A DNA stretch of 37,648 nt from Nitrososphaerota archaeon. GTDB lineage: Archaea > Thermoproteota > Nitrososphaeria > Nitrososphaerales > Nitrosopumilaceae. Shown here piece by piece: positions 18,603 through 27,695 of this stretch. Every line of letters begins with the position of its first letter. The stretch's first letter is position 1. A model generated the notes under the pieces. That model was given only the letters and a program-made list of their open reading frames with translations. It did no database searches and was not told the DNA's origin. Position numbers and translations under genes: made by a program. The stretch is taken from contig JACZTB010000014.1 of NCBI GenBank assembly GCA_022573895.1, positions 1 to 37,648 of the forward strand, given 5' to 3'.

Positions 18603-20063
18603 ATGATATTTTTCGATATGAAAAAGGAGCTTACCTTTGCGTTAAATTATGCATTAAACAAAGGATTCCAAATTCATCCAGATGCTTTTAAAATTTTAGA
18701 AAATGTGGATGTCAAAAAATTAGAGAAGATCATAAAGGAAATAGTTAGAGAAAAGACCAAACAGAAGTTATTTCAGATTAACCAAGATGATTTGGAGACA
18801 TATCTTGGAATTAAAGAGGATCCAACATTAAAAAGTGAAATTATAGTATTGTTTGATCCTACCACTAAGATAACAACGGGTGAGGGGGTTGACGGTTATA
18901 ATGCCTTGTTTTCAAGTCGTTTTAACAAACTCAAAAAAATAATTTTAGATAGACCAGAAGCGAGAAAGCTCAAATCCATAGCATTTGTAAAAACCGCAAA
19001 AACAGAAGATGATATGTATGTGTGTGGTCTTATCACTACAAGAAATACTGAGAGAAATATTACAAAGTTAGTTCTAGAGGATCCATCAGGCTCATTTGAG
19101 GGAATTGTTTTTGATGATGAGTTACAGAAGACTGTAGGTTCTCTTCTAACTGATCAGTTTGTTATGGTAAGGGTAGGTTTAGGAAAGAATTCAGGATTTG
19201 TTATCAAGGATTTGATTTTACCAGATATTCCGGATCAGCATATCAATAAATCAGAAACTGAAGTATATGCTGTTTTTCTTTCAGATCTACATATTGGAAG
19301 TAAGTACTTTATGGAAGAGGAATTTATGGAATTTGTCTCGTGGTTATCAAGTCCGGATCCAGTTGCAAGAAAAATTCGTTTTGTCCTAATTGGTGGAGAT
19401 GTAGTAGATGGAGTTGGAATATACCCAAATCAGGAAAAAGAGTTGGTTTGTTTAACCATTGAGGAGCAACTAAAAAAAGCAGAAAGTTTGATTGATAAGA
19501 TTCCAAAAAATGTAAAGGTCATAATAATGCCTGGAAACCACGATCCAGGAAGAAGGGCTCTCCCCCAGCCGGCTATACCAAAAAAATACAATTCAAGTTT
19601 GTGGGAAATGGAAAATGTAGTTATGGTTGGAAATCCAGCTGTGGTTTCATTGAATGGTGTAAAGGTAATGATGTTTCATGGACAAAGTATTGATGATATT
19701 GTAAAGACCACACCTGGTCTAAGTTATAACAAACCAACAAACGTGATGAAACATCTTCTCAGGGCAAGGCATTTAAGTCCAATTTATGGTCGTCAAACAC
19801 CCATAGCACCTGAGATGGAGGATCTTTTAGTAATTGAGAATATTCCAGATATCTTTCATGTAGGCCATGTTCACAGAGCAGAATTGGATATGTATAAAGG
19901 AATTTTACTTGTAAATTCCGGTTCGTGGCAAAGACAAACACCTTTTCAGGCTAGTGTTGGAATGACCCCAAACCCAGGAATAGCAATCATGGTAAATTTA
20001 AAGACCTTCCAAGTCTTCCATCAAAATTATAATTCAAATTCAGAGAATATCTTGCAAAATTGA
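18603..20063 (+). CDS. dp1: DNA polymerase D small subunit (DP1)
   Basis: 486 residues. The N-terminal helical region (1-75) is followed by an OB-fold (about 85-205, including LEDPSGSFEGIVF) and a calcineurin-like phosphoesterase domain (220-470). The nuclease motifs are all present: SDLHIG (227-232), GGDVVDG (264-270), GNHDPGRR (311-318), FHGQS (358-362) and GHVHRA (421-426), so the 3'-5' proofreading exonuclease should be active. DP1 and DP2 (24318) make the main replicative polymerase in these archaea. The gene overlaps the convergent cdc6 by 24 bases and is near the probable origin. Confidence 0.97.
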   Translation: MIFFDMKKELTFALNYALNKGFQIHPDAFKILENVDVKKLEKIIKEIVREKTKQKLFQINQDDLETYLGIKEDPTLKSEIIVLFDPTTKITTGEGVDGYNALFSSRFNKLKKIILDRPEARKLKSIAFVKTAKTEDDMYVCGLITTRNTERNITKLVLEDPSGSFEGIVFDDELQKTVGSLLTDQFVMVRVGLGKNSGFVIKDLILPDIPDQHINKSETEVYAVFLSDLHIGSKYFMEEEFMEFVSWLSSPDPVARKIRFVLIGGDVVDGVGIYPNQEKELVCLTIEEQLKKAESLIDKIPKNVKVIIMPGNHDPGRRALPQPAIPKKYNSSLWEMENVVMVGNPAVVSLNGVKVMMFHGQSIDDIVKTTPGLSYNKPTNVMKHLLRARHLSPIYGRQTPIAPEMEDLLVIENIPDIFHVGHVHRAELDMYKGILLVNSGSWQRQTPFQASVGMTPNPGIAIMVNLKTFQVFHQNYNSNSENILQN

Positions 20064-21251
20064 TGCTTCTGGACTTTCTTTAAAGGCCTTTTTTACAATT
20101 TCAGATGTGGTTTCAAGTTTGAATTTTTTTGTAGTCCCATGAGTGCCTTGATTGACAATTCTTCCACTAATAATTCCAAGTTGATCAATTTCACTTAACA
20201 TTTGTGTGACTCGTCTATTGGTAAGTTCATCATGACCAATTCTCTTACAGAGATTTTTGTACGATAAGTAAATCTCGCCAGTGGAGGAACCGTTTGCTCT
20301 CATAATTGCAAGAATAACCAATTTTTTGTGGGGGGGAAATCCTTTAAGAGTAGTTTTCACTAACTGTTCTTCTATTTTTTCATAAGCTTCTCTAACATGT
20401 TTATCGGTAACTTTTTTTGATTGTTGCCGATCGGCAATTTCACCTGCTTTAAGAAGTAAATTAATTGCCCTACGAGCATCGCCGTGTTCTCTTGCTGCAT
20501 ATCTTGCACATAGATCTATAGCAGGTTTCTCAACAGAATTTTCTACAAAGGCTTCATTGACCCTCTCCTGAAGGATCGTTTCAATTTGTTGAACATTATA
20601 ATTTACAAAAATAATTTCCTCCTCACCAAGACTGCTAATAACTCTAGGATCAAGATGGTCTTTGAATGTCAAATCGTTTGAAATTCCTACTAAAGTTATG
20701 GAGCCTTGTTCCAGACGCTCGTTTGCTCTTGTAAGTTGATATAATATGTCATTACCTGTTTTTTGTGCCTGTTTGGCAAGATGATCAATTTCATCAATTA
20801 CAAAAATTGTGTTAAGTCTTTCTTGATTAATTTTATTAAGAATTCTTTTGAAGACCTCACTTATTGCTAGGCCAGTTGCAGGTAATTCTTTATCATTAAG
20901 ACCTAGTTGTTTGCCTAGGCTTATTATCAATCCGTAAATTGCGGTTTCGTTTTTGCTGTTAGTATATGCAATTTTAATTGGGAAGTTTGATTTTTCAACT
21001 CTTTTTTCAATATTTTCAATTACTTTTTTAATCACTAATGTTTTGCCGGTTCCAGGTTCCCCATAGAGTAAAAGGTTGGATGGCCTAGATTGATTTATGA
21101 TTGGCGATAAAGATTGGGTAACTTGTTCCTGTTCAGAGGTTCTATATTGTATAGTTTTAGGGATGTAATCTAATTTTAAAATCTCTCTATTTTTCAGAAT
21201 AGATTCTCCAGCTTCTACTGCATCAAGTATTCTATCTATTGGGTCAGACAT
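20040..21251 (-). CDS. cdc6: Replication initiator Orc1/Cdc6
   Basis: 403 residues from the ATG at 21251 (a GTG two codons upstream at 21257 is possible). AAA+ motifs: YGEPGTGKT (63-71) and VIDEIDHL (151-158). Sensor-1 is in ITLVGISNDL, sensor-2 in EHGDARRAINLLLKAG. The C-terminal winged helix (about 315-400) includes NRRVTQMLSEIDQLGIISGR. It binds origin recognition boxes and loads the MCM helicase. The gene is transcribed away from a 490-base intergenic region holding such boxes, the usual arrangement of initiator next to origin. It is the only Orc1/Cdc6 in the window. It shares a 24-base tail overlap with the DP1 gene. Confidence 0.97.
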   Translation of the reverse strand: MSDPIDRILDAVEAGESILKNREILKLDYIPKTIQYRTSEQEQVTQSLSPIINQSRPSNLLLYGEPGTGKTLVIKKVIENIEKRVEKSNFPIKIAYTNSKNETAIYGLIISLGKQLGLNDKELPATGLAISEVFKRILNKINQERLNTIFVIDEIDHLAKQAQKTGNDILYQLTRANERLEQGSITLVGISNDLTFKDHLDPRVISSLGEEEIIFVNYNVQQIETILQERVNEAFVENSVEKPAIDLCARYAAREHGDARRAINLLLKAGEIADRQQSKKVTDKHVREAYEKIEEQLVKTTLKGFPPHKKLVILAIMRANGSSTGEIYLSYKNLCKRIGHDELTNRRVTQMLSEIDQLGIISGRIVNQGTHGTTKKFKLETTSEIVKKAFKESPEASILQDIL

Positions 21252-21335
21252 ACTCACACACCTTTGTTTCCTACTAATAATATCATAACCATATGTGAAT
21301 TAAGAGAGTAAAGAAGAGAATAGTAACTCTAGTTT

Positions 21336-21395
21336 AGTTTATAATTAATTATTTTTAGTTATTTTTTGATTTTCAAAAAAAAAAAATATAAAAAA
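21336..21395. other. AT-rich duplex-unwinding candidate
   Basis: About 60 bases of nearly pure A/T, with long A and T runs, lying between the cdc6 start and the weak origin box. Such tracts melt first at archaeal and bacterial origins. The position beside ORB-like elements supports this reading, but any AT-rich promoter would look similar. Confidence 0.5.
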
Positions 21396-21397
21396 AC

Positions 21398-21420
21398 ACA
21401 GAGTGGAAAGGTTGGTGTGT
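21398..21420 (+). repeat. Weak (mini) origin recognition box
   Basis: AGAGTGGAAAGGTTGGTGTG shares the GAGTGGAAA core of the two strong boxes but in the opposite orientation and with a degenerate G-rich side (GGTTGG instead of AAGGGGG). Inverted boxes flanking an unwinding zone are usual in archaeal origins. Confidence 0.6.
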
Positions 21421-21499
21421 GAGTTTAGATGAAATTTCCTTTCAGGTTAACACTTTGTTAATTTTCTGTTAAGGAATTTTCCAAAAAAGGCCATTATGA

Positions 21500-21525
21500 C
21501 CCCCTTATTTCCACTCCAGGCGTTA
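21500..21525 (-). repeat. Origin recognition box 1
   Basis: CCCCCTTATTTCCACTCC followed by AGGCGTTA; read on the minus strand it gives CCTGGAGTGGAAATAAGGGG, very near the archaeal ORB consensus with its G-string and TGGAAA core. It differs from box 2 at one base over the first 24 positions. Confidence 0.85.
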
Positions 21526-21561
21526 AGATTGATGTTAACGCTGTGAACATACAAAAACTAA

Positions 21562-21587
21562 CCCCCTTGTTTCCACTCCAGGCGTAA
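21562..21587 (-). repeat. Origin recognition box 2
   Basis: CCCCCTTGTTTCCACTCC followed by AGGCGTAA. It has the same orientation as box 1 and begins 62 bases after it, close to six helical turns, so both boxes face the same side of the DNA. Confidence 0.85.
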
Positions 21588-21742
21588 GAATTTCCTTATT
21601 TGTGGTGATTATGTATGATGTGTTGTTAACGATAAAAATATGGTTAGGCACAACTTAGGCAGTCAATCTTAACAAACTACCTAGTTAACAAACATTCTCG
21701 GATCAATTGAATTGTTAACATCTGATCCTCAAGATCTTAAAG

Positions 21743-22129
21743 ATGGTTAAAAAACGTATTCGAATAGATATGGAGGACTCTGATGGTGCACGCTACGACA
21801 TAAAAATAGAGGGCAATGTTACCAGGGAAAAGATTCTTAAAATATTTGAAATGATGGATTTGATGAATATTGAGGAAGAACAAGAAGCAACCAATATGGA
21901 CTCGGTAGGCTCAAAAATTTGGCATGTTGTAGACAAGTTCTTCCCTGTAGGTGAATTTACCTCCACAAAGATACTTGAAAAATATGAAGACGAATTCAAC
22001 GAACCAGTAAAACTTAGTGTAATATCCACCTATTTGTCACGATTTTCATCAAAAGGTAGAATTGATAGAGTTAGAACAGGTCGTGAATGGACCTATCAAA
22101 CCATTAAGATTAGTCAAAAACAGCGATAA
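21743..22129 (+). CDS. Winged-helix protein next to the origin
   Basis: 128 residues. The first 35 residues (KKRIRIDMEDSDGARYDIKI and on) form a beta-rich start; the C-terminal half (about 55-122) has the shape of a winged helix: a helix with SKIWHVVDKFFP, a second helix TSTKILEKYED, a recognition helix LSVISTYLSRFSSKGRIDRV and a wing with RTGREWTYQTI. The protein is basic in the last 40 residues. Its promoter region is the origin itself, with repeated GTTAAC motifs just ahead of its start, which makes it a candidate origin-binding or replication-linked regulator. I know no characterised homologue. Confidence 0.75.
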   Translation: MVKKRIRIDMEDSDGARYDIKIEGNVTREKILKIFEMMDLMNIEEEQEATNMDSVGSKIWHVVDKFFPVGEFTSTKILEKYEDEFNEPVKLSVISTYLSRFSSKGRIDRVRTGREWTYQTIKISQKQR

Positions 22130-22133
22130 CTAG

Positions 22134-22295
22134 TCAAGAAATAGTAATTTTTCTAATAATTAACCGGTCGTTTACAAGAATTAACTTAACATATTCACCT
22201 TTTTGAATATCCATGTACTTTCTAAACTGTTTAGGAATGGAAATTGTTCCAGCTGAAGTGATTTTTACCAAAACTTCATTTTCTTGAACAGACAT
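22134..22295 (-). CDS. SpoVT-AbrB domain DNA-binding protein, 53 residues
   Basis: The minus-strand frame from ATG 22295 to TGA 22134 encodes 53 residues: VLVKITSAGTISIPKQFRKY then MDIQKGEYVKLILVNDRLII. This is the swapped-hairpin AbrB fold (TSAG-TISIPKQFR is the signature). Such small proteins are DNA-binding dimers, in archaea often regulators or antitoxins. I see no toxin partner. A TATA-like attatatata lies about 25 bases upstream of the ATG (22316-22326), giving a leaderless transcript. It is tail to tail with the winged-helix gene, four bases apart. Confidence 0.85.
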   Translation of the reverse strand: MSVQENEVLVKITSAGTISIPKQFRKYMDIQKGEYVKLILVNDRLIIRKITIS

Positions 22296-22408
22296 ATAAT
22301 TACTATAATTTAATAATATATATAATTAATAAATAATAAAAATTAGGTTGTTTTCCTAAAATTTTGGATTAAAGAAAAAAACCTGTTCCAAAAACCTGAA
22401 GAAATTTC

Positions 22409-23011
22409 TTATGTGATTATAGGGTTAGTTTGAATTTCATCAACCTTTGTTTTTCCTTTTTCAGTTATTGAATAAGTATATGGTTTGGTTTCTGTATTCC
22501 TTTCAACAAAACCATCTTCAAATAATTTTTTCATTAATCGTGATGTATGCTCCCTACTTCTCTTTAATGTGATTTGTATGTCACGTGATGTCATAGCTTT
22601 GTTTGTGATTAGATGCAATACATGACCTATTGGGCTTGTATAATCTGAGCTAGAAACACTAGGCGTAGAAATTGGTTCTTCAGGCACAACTTCAGAATGA
22701 TTAACATCTACAACTTGTGTTTCATGTGATTCATTCTTTGCTAACTTCTCTAAGAATTGTTTTAATTCCAAATTAGGGTCATCTGATTTTTGTTCAATTC
22801 CTTGTATTTCTATAGCGTCAAGACGTATTTTCATATCAATTAACTGCCTTTCATAATACTCTAAACGCTCAGATTGTGATACATCAATCATTTCATTCCT
22901 AGATTTTATGAATGGACGTGCTTTATAGAATACATACAACCCGACTAAACCAACTAAGAATGCTAAAATCACACCCAAAATCACTTCAGGATCAGGAATT
23001 TCTACTAACAT
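22409..23011 (-). CDS. Membrane-anchored winged-helix transcription regulator
   Basis: About 200 residues (ATG at 23011; a GTG one codon upstream is also possible). One membrane helix at about 10-29 (VILGVILAFLVGLVGLYVFY), a coiled coil at about 44-72, a Ser/Pro/Glu-rich linker (75-128), then a MarR/ArsR-like winged helix at about 129-192: GHVLHLITNKAMTSRDIQ, a recognition helix in SREHTSRLMKKLFEDGF and the wing ERNTETKPYTYSITEKGKTK. The layout places the DNA-binding domain in the cytoplasm, tied to the membrane. An inverted repeat and a series of ATCACA/TGTGAT motifs precede the gene, so it may regulate itself. Confidence 0.8.
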   Translation of the reverse strand: MLVEIPDPEVILGVILAFLVGLVGLYVFYKARPFIKSRNEMIDVSQSERLEYYERQLIDMKIRLDAIEIQGIEQKSDDPNLELKQFLEKLAKNESHETQVVDVNHSEVVPEEPISTPSVSSSDYTSPIGHVLHLITNKAMTSRDIQITLKRSREHTSRLMKKLFEDGFVERNTETKPYTYSITEKGKTKVDEIQTNPIIT

Positions 23012-23025
23012 CACAAATTTTCTAT

Positions 23026-23059
23026 CAATGTTGTGATTTATTGTGATTGAGCAACATTG
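23026..23059. promoter_or_regulatory. Inverted repeat upstream of the membrane-anchored regulator
   Basis: CAATGTTG (23026-23033) and CAACATTG (23052-23059) are exact reverse complements, 18 bases apart. Between and around them TGTGAT or its complement ATCACA occurs repeatedly (for instance at 23032, 23042, 23106 and 23117). The cluster lies within about 110 bases of the start of the winged-helix gene at 23011 and ahead of the gene at 23488. An operator is the obvious reading. Confidence 0.5.
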
Positions 23060-23125
23060 TTTTACACTTTAGATTAACGTCGTCACAACAACTTGACTTA
23101 CTTTTGACCAAAATCATCACAAACA

Positions 23126-23488
23126 TCACATGTTACATGCCTTTCGAATAGTCATATCTATCACATTAGTGATCTGCTCTTCTCTTTCTGGGAAGACATC
23201 ACTATCATTCATCACACGGACATACTCTGAAAGTTTGGATATCACATCAATGTCATCAGGTAATAAAATACCTAGACCGTGTAAAAGAATGATTGAATAG
23301 AATAACCCGATTAATTTTTCTCTTGATTGCCCAACTTGTCTGTAGTAGGCTCCTTTTGTTATAGAAAATTTAGTTTCCAAAAGATCCTTCTGATTTAAAA
23401 TAATTTCAATTTGTCGTTCAGTAAATAGTGATTTTTTGATAATTTGACGAATAATATTGTTAAAATTAGACTCTTGAAACTCTGGCAT
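23126..23488 (-). CDS. Helical protein, unknown function
   Basis: 120 residues, wholly alpha-helical by composition, with no membrane segment other than the mildly hydrophobic LIGLFYSIILLHGLGILL (about 59-76), probably a core helix. Residues 22-52 (FTERQIEIILNQKDLLETKF, then SITKGAYYRQVGQSREKL) look like a helix-turn-helix of the kind found in transcription factors, beginning with the TERQIEIIL phrase typical of LuxR-type helices, but this may be chance. Two cysteines are absent; one sits in the last residues (KACNM). It is in the same direction as the membrane-anchored regulator and 110 bases from it. Confidence 0.55.
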   Translation of the reverse strand: MPEFQESNFNNIIRQIIKKSLFTERQIEIILNQKDLLETKFSITKGAYYRQVGQSREKLIGLFYSIILLHGLGILLPDDIDVISKLSEYVRVMNDSDVFPEREEQITNVIDMTIRKACNM

Positions 23489-23555
23489 AGCTATACAAAT
23501 CTGTATACCACATTACAATTAAACTTTAAAGAGGAGTCATCTACAATTCCCCACT

Positions 23556-24305
23556 ATGACTGGAAAAGTTGAATCGTTCCTAAAATCCGAACTAAAAAAG
23601 AAAAACACATTGTTGTTCGTGTTGATCGATTCTGAAGTATCGCATTTAGAGGCATCAAGCAAACTTGCCAGAGATGTTGAAAAAATTGGTGCTTCTGCAA
23701 TCTTGGTTGGAGGCTCTTCTGTCACTGATCAGATTGAGATGGCCCAAGTGGTTAAAGGCATTAAAAAAGGCATCAAAATACCAATAATCTTGTTTCCTGG
23801 GAATGTTACTGGTGTTGTACCGGATGCTGACGCAATCCTATTCAGCTCACTAATGAACTCAGAGAATCCATACTTTATTACACAAGCACAAGCATTGGGA
23901 GCCCCAAGTGTTCTTAAGTTTGGCTTAGAGCCACTTCCTACTGCTTATTTGGTGATAGGAGAGGGAACCTCTGCCTGGTTTGTTGGTTCAGCACGAGGAA
24001 TTCCATTTGAAAAACCAAAAATTGCCGCTGCATATGCCCTTGCTGCTCAATTTCTTGGTATGAGATTTGTATATTTAGAAGCAGGCTCTGGGGCAAAAAC
24101 TAATGTTACTTCAGAGATGATTCAGACGGTAAGGCGTACTTTTAATGGATTTTTGATAGTAGGAGGAGGAATTAAAGACATGAAAACTGCTCAGAGTTTG
24201 GCCAAAGCAGGAGCTGACGCATTGGTTATTGGAACATTCCTTGAAAAAGGAGGAAGTATCAAAAAACTTGAAGAAATAGCAAAAGCAATTCAAAGAAGTA
24301 AGTAG
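23556..24305 (+). CDS. Geranylgeranylglyceryl phosphate synthase
   Basis: 249 residues of the PcrB/GGGPS family, a TIM barrel. Marks: LIDSEVSHLEASSKLARDVE near the N-terminus, ILVGGSSVTD (substrate phosphate region), IILFPGNVTGVVPDADAILF, YLEAGSGAKTNV and FLIVGGGIKDMKTAQSLAKA. The enzyme joins geranylgeranyl diphosphate to sn-glycerol-1-phosphate, the first committed step of archaeal ether lipids. It ends 12 bases before the polymerase gene and is likely in one operon with it. The start is ATG 23556. Confidence 0.96.
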   Translation: MTGKVESFLKSELKKKNTLLFVLIDSEVSHLEASSKLARDVEKIGASAILVGGSSVTDQIEMAQVVKGIKKGIKIPIILFPGNVTGVVPDADAILFSSLMNSENPYFITQAQALGAPSVLKFGLEPLPTAYLVIGEGTSAWFVGSARGIPFEKPKIAAAYALAAQFLGMRFVYLEAGSGAKTNVTSEMIQTVRRTFNGFLIVGGGIKDMKTAQSLAKAGADALVIGTFLEKGGSIKKLEEIAKAIQRSK

Positions 24306-24317
24306 TAGAATTGTATT

Positions 24318-27300
24318 ATGTTTGAAAATAATACAATTTCTCGAATTAGTGACATTAACATGCCTGATTATTATCGTGATTACTACTCAAATCTCTCAAC
24401 TGAAACAATTTCCATCTTTGAGAAAGCAGCAGAGGCAAAATCAAGTTTGGTTGACTCTTCAGGTGTAATCGAGCCAAAGATCGCATTCGATTTAGCAGAT
24501 CGGGTCTCCAAAATGCACGAAATTGATATTGCTGAACCGCTTAGGGAATTACTAAAGAAAAATGGAAAGGAGATTTCTGCACTAATTCTATCAAAGAAAA
24601 TTGCCCTCGGCAAATACACTCCTTCTAATGCGTCCTTAGAAGAAAGACTTGATCTTGCAGTTCGGGTCGGGCTGGCTATTGTTACCGAAGGAGTAACCAT
24701 CGCACCTTTACAGGGAATTAATGAAGTAAAAATAAAGAAAAATAAAGACGGCACTGAATATCTTTCAGTTTCTATTGCAGGACCCATGCGTTCTGCAGGA
24801 GGAACAGAATCTGCTGTAACAATGCTAATTGCAGACCATGTTAGAAAGGCAGTTGGACTATCAAAGTACCAAGCTAATTCCTTTGATGACGAAACAGGGA
24901 GATTTGTTGAGGAATTGCGAATCTATGAAAGAGAGGCTGGCAGCTTTCAATTTCATATCTTAGATGAAGATATCGAACATGTCATTTCTAACCTTCCAGT
25001 AGAACTAGATGGAGTAGATACAGATCCATTTGAGGTTGTAAATCACAAATCTATGGCTCGTATCAAAACTGATAGGGTCAGAGGAGGCGCTTTACGTGTC
25101 TTAAATGACGGATTGATTGGAAGATCTAAAAAACTTCTCAAAAGGATCGAGTTGTACAATCTAGATGGTTGGGAATGGCTTAATGATCTTAAAGGCGTAA
25201 TTCAAACAAGTGAAAATCAGGAAGACGCAGCTACCAAAAGAATGCGTGAAGTAATTACGGGCAGGTCGGTCTTATCTATGCCTAATAAGTTAGGTGGGTT
25301 TCGATTAAGATATGGAAGAGCATGTAATACAGGCTTTGCGGCAGTTGGGGTCCATCCAGCACTTGCTGAAATTTTGAATCATACCATAGTTGTTGGAACA
25401 CAGATTAAAATTGATATTCCAGGAAAAGCGGCAACTATTGCCTTTGTTGATTCCATTGAAACTCCGACAGTTCGTCTGAAAAATGGTAATGTTGTAAAGA
25501 TTAGAGATGTTAAACATGGATTAGAAATCAAAAATGAAATTGAAAAAATCCTACATTTAGGCGATATTCTAATTTCATTTGGAGACTTTCTTGAAAACAA
25601 CGCTCAACTTATTCCCTCAGGATATGTTGAGGAATTTTGGATAGAGGAACTAAAACAAAAAATTCAAAAATATGAGCCTGATGATCAATATCTAAAACAA
25701 TTTCTGACCAGAATACCCACAATGGATGAAGCATTGAAAATTTCTCTTGATTTTCAAATTCCACTTCATCCACACTATCTGTATTACTGGGATAAAATCT
25801 CACCAGAAGAACTTGGCCAACTTTTAGAACCAAAAAAAATCAACGAGACATCTATCGAATACTCGACTCAAATTAAAAAAATTCTCGAAAAATTAGGTGT
25901 ACCTCATAAAGTTGAAAATGAAATTATAGAATTAGAAAATCTAGAGGCAAAAATTTTCTTCAATTTATTGTTTAGAGAAAAACTAATAATTAGTAATTTA
26001 CCAGTTCCACAAATTCTAACAAAATCATCGGGGATTCGAATTAAGAACAAATTCTCAACCTCTATCTGGGTTCGAATTGGAAGACCTGAAAAAGCAGCTG
26101 CTAGGCAAATGAAACCCCCGACACATATCTTATTTCCAATTAGCGACAAAGGAGGACCTACTAGAGATCTTCTAAAGGCATCAAGAAATGAACACTTCTT
26201 TACTAACTTATTCAACAGGCATTGCATCCAATGTGATGAACCTTCTATAGGCATAAGGTGTACCAAATGCGGTACTAAGACGACAATTTTCTATAGGTGT
26301 CCTAACTGTAGAGATGTCCTCAATGAACCAAATTGCGAAAAATGTAAACGGAAAGCATCAACTTACTCCTACAAGGAATTTCCACTAAAAGCGAGACTAG
26401 CATTAGCTCAAGAAAAGATGGGCTTGCGTGTAAAAGAACCATTCAAAGGCGTCAAAGAGCTAATTAATCAAGATAGAATTGCTGAACCTCTAGAAAAGGG
26501 GCTTGTACGTCAAAACTTTGGACTTACAGTCTTTAAAGATGGGACTGTCAGATTTGATGCAACAAATTCTCCATTAACTCAATTCAAACCATCATGGATT
26601 GGAACATCGATAGAGAAACTAAAGGATCTCGGATATTCTCACGACATTGATGGAAACCCCCTTGTAAACTCGGATCAAATTGTTGAACTTCGTATGCAAG
26701 ATGTGATAATTCCTTATGATAGTGGAAATTATCTAGTTTCTACCTGTAAATACATTGATACTCTTTTAGACAAGTTCTATGAAAAATCTCCATTTTACAA
26801 CGTTAAGAATTCGGACGATCTAATTGGTCATCTAATAATTGGTTTAGCCCCACATACTTCTGTTGGAATTGTAGGGCGAATCATTGGGTATACTGAAACC
26901 CATGTTTGTTTTGCAACTCCAAACTGGCATTCTGCGAAAAGGAGAGACGCTGACGGTGATGCTGATTCTATCATGCTTCTAATGGATAGCCTACTTAATT
27001 TCTCAAGACAGTTTCTTTCTGATAGAATAGGTGGATTAATGGATGCCCCATTACTTATTCAACCTCTTGTTTTACCACATGAATCTCAATCACAGGCACA
27101 CAATCTTGAAGTAACAAAGTCACTTCCTTTAGAATTCTTTGAATCCACATTTCAACAGATCAAAGCATCAGATGTTACATCTGTAGAAATTATTAAATCA
27201 CGCCTTGAAACTGAAAGACAGTTTTACGATTATTTCTTTACACATTCAACTTCATCTCTAACCACTTCAAAATCCCGTAGTGCCTACTCTACGCTTGGTT

Positions 27301-27695
27301 CCATGCTTGACAAATTTGATATGCAAATGAGAAATGCTGAATTAATTGATGTGGTAAACCCTTCAGAAATTGTTTCACATGTCATTTCAACACACCTTGT
27401 TCCAGATATTATGGGAAATCTTAGGGCATACGCTAGACAAAACTTTAGGTGTACTGGTTGTGGAAAATCATTTCGCCGAATGCCTTTAATTCAAACATGT
27501 AACTGTGGCCATAAACTAATTGCTACAATTACCAGAGGCTCTGTAGTAAAATATCTAAAACTTGCAAAAAGACTTGTTGACAAATATGATGTTGGTGAAT
27601 ATCAAAGAGGAAGAATTTATGCTCTATCAGATGAAATTGAATTGGTATTTGGTAAGAGTCAAGGCGATCAATCACTTCTGACTGATTACGCCTAG
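24318..27695 (+). CDS. dp2: DNA polymerase D large subunit (DP2)
   Basis: 1125 residues, normal for an intein-free DP2. The N-terminal region has the family block SIAGPMRSAGGTESAVTMLI. A zinc-ribbon region spans about residues 635-680 (several CxxC pairs: HCIQC, RCTKC, RCPNC, NCEKC). The catalytic aspartate motif is RRDADGDADS (about 874-883), where the four aspartates of the known NADCDGDED site are kept. A second zinc element near the C-terminus has CTGCG and TCNCG. It pairs with DP1 (18603). The gene lies 12 bases after GGGP synthase and ends two bases before the convergent glyA. Confidence 0.97.
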   Translation: MFENNTISRISDINMPDYYRDYYSNLSTETISIFEKAAEAKSSLVDSSGVIEPKIAFDLADRVSKMHEIDIAEPLRELLKKNGKEISALILSKKIALGKYTPSNASLEERLDLAVRVGLAIVTEGVTIAPLQGINEVKIKKNKDGTEYLSVSIAGPMRSAGGTESAVTMLIADHVRKAVGLSKYQANSFDDETGRFVEELRIYEREAGSFQFHILDEDIEHVISNLPVELDGVDTDPFEVVNHKSMARIKTDRVRGGALRVLNDGLIGRSKKLLKRIELYNLDGWEWLNDLKGVIQTSENQEDAATKRMREVITGRSVLSMPNKLGGFRLRYGRACNTGFAAVGVHPALAEILNHTIVVGTQIKIDIPGKAATIAFVDSIETPTVRLKNGNVVKIRDVKHGLEIKNEIEKILHLGDILISFGDFLENNAQLIPSGYVEEFWIEELKQKIQKYEPDDQYLKQFLTRIPTMDEALKISLDFQIPLHPHYLYYWDKISPEELGQLLEPKKINETSIEYSTQIKKILEKLGVPHKVENEIIELENLEAKIFFNLLFREKLIISNLPVPQILTKSSGIRIKNKFSTSIWVRIGRPEKAAARQMKPPTHILFPISDKGGPTRDLLKASRNEHFFTNLFNRHCIQCDEPSIGIRCTKCGTKTTIFYRCPNCRDVLNEPNCEKCKRKASTYSYKEFPLKARLALAQEKMGLRVKEPFKGVKELINQDRIAEPLEKGLVRQNFGLTVFKDGTVRFDATNSPLTQFKPSWIGTSIEKLKDLGYSHDIDGNPLVNSDQIVELRMQDVIIPYDSGNYLVSTCKYIDTLLDKFYEKSPFYNVKNSDDLIGHLIIGLAPHTSVGIVGRIIGYTETHVCFATPNWHSAKRRDADGDADSIMLLMDSLLNFSRQFLSDRIGGLMDAPLLIQPLVLPHESQSQAHNLEVTKSLPLEFFESTFQQIKASDVTSVEIIKSRLETERQFYDYFFTHSTSSLTTSKSRSAYSTLGSMLDKFDMQMRNAELIDVVNPSEIVSHVISTHLVPDIMGNLRAYARQNFRCTGCGKSFRRMPLIQTCNCGHKLIATITRGSVVKYLKLAKRLVDKYDVGEYQRGRIYALSDEIELVFGKSQGDQSLLTDYA

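Follow-up and report, generated by a model that had tools for sequence, protein, structure and literature searches.

To our knowledge, origin firing is little understood in archaea beyond Sulfolobus, Pyrococcus, and the haloarchaea. In N. maritimus, one origin has been mapped (Pelve et al. 2013, as given in PMC4010727); it has been located by the "ORB repeats" that precede the cdc gene (PMC5797428). At Sulfolobus oriC1, inverted ORBs stand around an AT-rich element together with a conserved non-ORB motif, an arrangement like the one described below (PMC12141716). The 2025 paper on the Sulfolobus protein UBP draws a parallel with IHF and Fis at E. coli oriC and closes with the question of whether more distant lineages, too, have comparable proteins at their origins (PMC12141716). 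The locus we analyzed corresponds to that of N. maritimus, with the same ORBs upstream of a single cdc6, and its origin is therefore known in kind from the N. maritimus mapping. New here are an array of TGTTAAC sites, its TGTGAA form, the co-segregation of this array with the ORBs, and a link to residue 93 of a neighboring winged-helix (wHTH) protein. We searched the open-access literature and met no description of the array in either form, of a layout with four boxes, or of a wHTH origin factor.

The window, meaning the whole stretch of DNA analyzed, is contig C18 (37,648 nucleotides) from a 1.80 Mb draft genome that comprises 92 contigs. Its gene content and its relatives assign it to the Nitrosopumilus family; the named loci retrieved with its Orc1 come from Nitrosopumilaceae and marine group I thaumarchaeotes. 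In it, the orc1/cdc6 initiator gene (20040-21257, minus strand) faces the wHTH gene (21743-22129, plus strand) across a 485-bp intergenic interval, 21258-21742, that contains the ORBs. The 405-aa orc1 ORF, whose ATG start is probably near 21251, matched Pfam Cdc6_lid (4.5e-25) and Cdc6_C (5.8e-20) as well as TIGR02928 (363 bits), and was the only Orc1/Cdc6 match in the whole genome. Convergent with it lies the gene for the DNA polymerase D small subunit, DP1 (18603-20063, plus strand; Pfam DNA_pol_E_B, 1.6e-23), and DP2 follows at 24318-27695. Both PolD subunits, orc1, and the wHTH gene thus fall inside ~9 kb around the origin (18603-27695). Two further minus-strand genes are found nearby: a short unlisted ORF directly downstream of the wHTH gene (22150-22300) with an AbrB/SpoVT-type DNA-binding look (MSVQENEVLVKITSAGTISIPKQFRKYM...), and a second winged-helix protein with an HTH_27/TrmB-like C-terminus (22409-23014).

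We compared this locus with those of more than 100 relatives, referred to by anonymous family labels (f1, f2, and so on). Among them are G044, a relative from the same genus, and G059, a closed relative. ORB spacing was surveyed in 73 orc1-wHTH intergenics, with the window and G044 counted in, and column conservation and hexamer counts were taken from 35 aligned origins, which are diverse f1 intergenics. The outgroup families, f20 to f64, belong to other classes of the same phylum and look like Bathyarchaeia and relatives.

The sequence-only reading had described two ORB-like boxes 62 bases apart with a single difference over 24 bases, and our searches bore this out. Box c (21499-21523, plus strand; CCCCCTTATTTCCACTCCAGGCGT at 21500-21523) and box d (21561-21585, plus strand; CCCCCTTGTTTCCACTCCAGGCGT at 21562-21585) lie 62 bp apart on the same strand with one mismatch over 24 bases. 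They are the sole matches in the window at ≤3 mismatches, with 0 expected in shuffles, and the 18-base ORB core, searched forward at the same threshold, occurred only in c and d in the whole 1.80 Mb genome. Scored with a matrix built from other families' boxes, the window boxes reached 27.8 vs. a best shuffle score of 4.2. The reverse strand of box c reads CCTGGAGTGGAAATAAGGGGGT and that of other families TTTCCACTGGAG, in agreement with the common archaeal ORB consensus, TCCA[CG]T[TG]GAAA[TC][GA]AAGGGGT (PMC4164010).

Alignment with the same region in relatives, proposed earlier as a check, found the ORBs conserved at this locus, with the tandem pair spaced 61 or 62 bp apart in 70 of the 73 intergenics. 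The DNA between the two boxes diverges although the spacing stays. Most other families of the class keep about 59-64 bp: 59-62 bp in f2, f3, one f4, f6, f7, f8, f11, f12, and f13, and 59 bp in three of the four f17 lineages, with 61 in the other. The spacing was 64 bp in f10, 61-68 bp in f16 (67-68 included), and 44 bp in f5. A matrix scan found no tandem pair in f14, f15, or the outgroup families, which mostly retain a(+), b(-), and c(+) of the boxes described here. Because it is kept across families, the spacing is a real constraint in the class. The suggestion that the pair sits in helical phase therefore stands as far as constrained spacing goes, although f16 also has spacings of 67-68 bp.

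Two weaker boxes complete the layout. The inverted weak box previously noticed near 21398, beside an AT tract, is box b (~21397-21418, minus strand; AGAGTGGAAAnnnnGGTGTG / AGAGTGGAAAGGTTGGTGTG), and it proved to be well conserved: almost every column of its core is ≥90-95% identical across the 35 aligned origins, its regex matched in 48/73 origins, and its f3 counterpart scores 16-24 at the corresponding place. Box a (21258-21279, plus strand; ACACCTTTGTTTCC...), which abuts the orc1 start, is a fourth box that is weaker still than b and was absent from the sequence-only reading. Its ACACACC and TTTC columns are kept in the 35 origins, and a clear box stands at this position in f3, f10, f13, f15, and f17. 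The box order is thus a(+), AT tract, b(-), c(+), d(+), with a and b weak in this genome. Since box a is direct and lies at the orc1 start, the boxes on the two sides of the AT tract (21338-21397; 93% AT) face in opposite directions, as they do at Sulfolobus oriC1 (PMC12141716), and the tract is a probable unwinding element.

From these features, we regard the interval 21258-21742 as almost certainly the single chromosomal replication origin (oriC). The sequence-only reading had called it a replication origin, and this is strongly upheld: orc1 is single, the ORBs occur at no second genomic site, the layout is kept throughout the class, and N. maritimus has just one mapped origin. The origin of G044 has the same layout as the window and aligned throughout. 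Nucleotide skew, sampled over about a quarter of each of the two closed genomes, was noisier. In G059, mean GC/AT skew was ~+0.04/+0.04 on the left arm of the ORB site and ~-0.02/-0.04 on the right, with much noise; in G044, it was ~0.00/+0.03 on the left and ~-0.02/-0.04 on the right, with large scatter. The arms are opposite in direction but the scatter is large, so skew lends the origin slight support, and we dropped GC skew as a proof of origin because the noise was too high in both genomes.

Interleaved with the ORBs is an array of short sites. Between b and c (21447-21472) are TTAACA at 21447 and TGTTAA at 21456 and 21467, in steps of 9-11 bp. Between c and d (21522-21547) are a half-site GTTAA at 21522, TGTTAAC at 21533, and TGTGAA at 21542, all kept in the 35 aligned origins. 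Toward the wHTH gene (21624-21720) are TGTTAAC at 21624, TTAACA at 21669, GTTAACA at 21684, and TGTTAACA at 21713. GTTAAC alone occurs five times in the 485-bp intergenic interval vs. 0.25 expected, with a maximum of two in 500 shuffles. The GTTAAC/TTAACA motifs reported by the sequence-only reading are therefore real, but they are not confined to the wHTH side as it had them, since the ORBs have such sites on both sides as well as between them. The GCGTTAA/TTAACGC palindrome that it had also singled out does occur, but no other genome shares its GC ends and the relatives retain only GGCGTTAAG...TGTTAAC at this place in the 35 aligned origins; we accordingly rejected the palindrome as a functional element.

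The array also recurs at this locus in relatives. TGTTAA is the most over-represented hexamer in the 35 f1 intergenics (315 vs. 29.6 expected, present in 35/35), and its sites occupy fixed places: three between b and c, two or three between c and d, and four toward the wHTH gene. Across 400-bp stretches of the window, 14 overlapping motif hits fell at the origin vs. ≤3 elsewhere. Within 400 kb sampled from G059, where single hexamers occur about once per kb, the origin was the top motif cluster, and dense irregular clusters were found only there. The only rival dense cluster in those 400 kb was a 24-bp tandem repeat carrying TGTTAAC (L257, G059 C1:6575-6911), and its even spacing looks like that of a repeat array or a repetitive gene rather than of an origin. 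No motif cluster above 3 per 300 bp was found in 400 kb sampled from G044.

Across other families, the array takes one of two forms. TGTTAA arrays occur in f2, f3, f5, f13, f15, and f17; none was found in f4, f6-f8, f10-f12, f14, or most of f16. In the 16 regions from families without a TGTTAA array, the top hexamer was TGTGAA (72 vs. 5.6 expected). Of 20 outgroup regions fetched, we treated 17 as origin-linked (16 with the wHTH gene beside orc1 and one with it 3.4 kb away), and TGTGAA was again the top hexamer (76 vs. 7.2 expected, 17/17).

The wHTH gene encodes the candidate array-binding protein, of 128 aa with a recognition helix at ~91-103 that includes V93. Orthologues were found in 222/250 genomes of the class and 185/300 genomes sampled across the phylum. 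Of 46 class genomes examined, over 17 families, 41 have the gene on the orc1 contig at a distance of ≤3 kb, and in the remaining five, the two genes are on separate contigs of draft assemblies. Outside the class, both genes could be placed in 25 genomes, and in 17 of these they adjoin or lie no more than 3.4 kb apart; in f27, f32, f47, and f22, they are unlinked. An alignment-based AlphaFold model (mean pLDDT 77), which replaced a single-sequence fold (pLDDT 39), has an N-terminal beta-hairpin and helix followed by a C-terminal winged helix, and the C-terminal part is basic (pI 9.6). Foldseek returned winged helices of the BlaI/MecI, ArsR, and Fur types as weak, generic neighbors (E > 0.005), and no counterpart for the N-terminal hairpin. 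The protein passes no Pfam cut-off, the BlaI/MecI family (PF03965) scoring 17.9 bits vs. a gathering score of 22.6. A PDB search with the single sequence found no relative, one with a profile gave weak regulator hits only, with no UBP chain named among them, and a PHROGs search gave no match.

Genomes in which these genes have been rearranged help to determine what the array belongs to. Where the wHTH gene is elsewhere (~2.8 kb away in f2; also in f27, f32, and f47), the ORBs and the array precede orc1, and no array was found upstream of the wHTH genes in these four families. In f57, the ORBs and the array instead precede the wHTH gene, with orc1 at a distance of 3.4 kb. In f9 and f16, the wHTH gene is on the strand of orc1, and either an ORB (f9) or a tandem pair (f16) stands with the array upstream of it. 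Where the wHTH gene is flipped upstream of orc1 in these families (L171-L172, L168, and L174 in f16; L151 in f9), further ORBs lie between the genes. Neither ORBs nor array was found upstream of orc1 in f22 (L215-L217), in which the wHTH gene is present but unlinked, and the origin of these genomes may be located elsewhere. The rearranged genomes thus keep the array with the ORBs and not with either gene, indicating that it travels with the ORBs and is very likely an origin element rather than part of either gene's promoter. If the array were instead a transcriptional operator of the divergent orc1/wHTH promoters, with wHTH as an autoregulatory BlaI/MecI-like repressor and the sites lacking a replication role, one could account for sites that extend to the wHTH start, the weak, sub-threshold Penicillinase_R similarity, and the BlaI/MecI fold neighbors. 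But in all rearranged cases the array goes where the ORBs go, some of its sites lie between them, unlinked wHTH genes have no upstream array, and neither does orc1 in f57, all of which makes this explanation quite improbable. Of its narrower forms, an operator of the wHTH gene alone was rejected because unlinked wHTH genes carry none upstream, and an operator of the orc1 promoter alone is disfavored by f57 and f16. It is exceedingly unlikely that the whole site is merely a conserved orc1 regulatory region and no origin; the weak skew signal in relatives would agree with this, but the ORBs fit the family consensus and sit away from orc1 in f57, orc1 is single, the layout fits an archaeal oriC, and N. 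maritimus has its single mapped origin.

Taking the array as an origin element, which protein reads it can be judged in part from covariation. Residue 93 immediately precedes the I/V-STYL of the recognition helix in wHTH. In 25 of 27 lineages, V/I/L/M/A93 is paired with TGTTAA and T93 with TGTGAA. Exceptions are f9 and one f20 (V/A93 with TGTGAA) and one f15 (T93 with TGTTAA). On the Orc1 tree, the motif class changes four times and the residue class five, and independent evolution on this tree gave such covariation by chance in 0 to 3 per 10,000 simulations (p ~2e-4), or about 0.03 after correction for 125 columns, with the residue grouping chosen post hoc. Our expectation for the outgroup was written down before the regions were fetched, and TGTGAA then proved to be their top hexamer, as given above. 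T93 was found in 15 of the 17 origin-linked wHTHs and A93 in two, of which f29 has a TGTTAA-rich array and f20 does not, a result that largely reflects one ancestral state. Contacts between aliphatic side chains and the methyl group of thymine are familiar, so the direction of the motif switch is plausible. Residue 93 was the best-associated wHTH column in the 70-odd set, but column 125 (13 residue types) outscores it in the 27-genome set, and in a control on Orc1, columns 324 (gappy) and 103 associate with the motif switch about as well. Because these columns associate too, the covariation supports, but does not prove, wHTH reading the array. The array could also be bound by another factor, such as Orc1, MCM, or an unlinked UBP-like nucleoid protein, with wHTH as a conserved neighbor. 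This would suit the two Orc1 columns, the families in which wHTH is unlinked, and the discovery of UBP as a nucleoid protein with chromosome-wide sites (PMC12141716). Still, we find it unlikely: Orc1 already has the ORBs, whose core does not switch with the array, the wHTH adjacency survives strand inversions (f9 and f16), and residue 93 stands at the start of the recognition helix. Together, this covariation and the adjacency to orc1 lead us to favor wHTH as the probable binder of the array, judging from sequence comparisons.

Our preferred account, to which we give a probability of roughly 0.63, is thus an oriC with Orc1 on the ORBs and a second protein, likeliest wHTH, on the array. Orc1/Cdc6 from the adjacent gene would bind the direct pair c and d at its fixed 61-62 bp, and would also bind the weaker boxes that flank the AT tract, b (inverted) and a (direct). 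ORB-bound Orc1 would then recruit MCM. Such binding and recruitment are expected from the behavior of the family, on an ORB anatomy that we observe directly. The wHTH product would occupy the TGTTAAC sites that surround and separate the ORBs. There it would serve as a factor devoted to origin architecture or activation, and could shape the origin or help helicase activation, as UBP does at the Sulfolobus ucm (PMC12141716). The earlier suggestion of a second origin-binding protein gains from the conservation of the array, its co-segregation with the ORBs, synteny, and the covariation of motif and residue 93, and such a protein appears likely on these sequence-based grounds. In its broadest form, our proposal is that a winged-helix protein dedicated to the origin since the common ancestor of Nitrososphaeria and the related outgroup classes, and a counterpart of UBP, binds an ORB-interleaved TGT[T/G]AAC array, with position 93 setting T (aliphatic) or G (threonine) through at least three joint changes; we hold the odds of this to be slightly better than even.

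As a UBP counterpart, wHTH would be of similarly small size (128 aa vs. 111 aa) but would differ in several respects (PMC12141716). The Sulfolobus ucm is a single 11-bp site, whereas the window has ~8-10 sites. The nucleoid protein UBP has a saddle shape and >300 sites, whereas wHTH is a predicted winged helix encoded at the origin, and UBP is a recent acquisition of Sulfolobales/Desulfurococcales, whereas wHTH is found in Nitrososphaeria and outgroup families (PMC12141716). Sulfolobus WhiP at oriC3 is, like wHTH, a winged-helix protein whose gene adjoins the origin that is its presumed target (PMC4010727, PMC5333045). Compared by description, however, WhiP alone initiates replication at an origin that lacks ORBs, whereas the window has ORBs and Orc1, and wHTH would be an accessory. 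E. coli oriC, with IHF and Fis, also interleaves initiator boxes with sites for a second, architectural protein, as here, although the proteins are unrelated. The E. coli initiator is DnaA, and the helicase is loaded on single strands. If our account is true, the closing question of PMC12141716 would be answered by wHTH as a distant lineage's counterpart of UBP, with a concrete candidate protein, its DNA sites, and matched variant specificities in the class that contains the ammonia-oxidising archaea.
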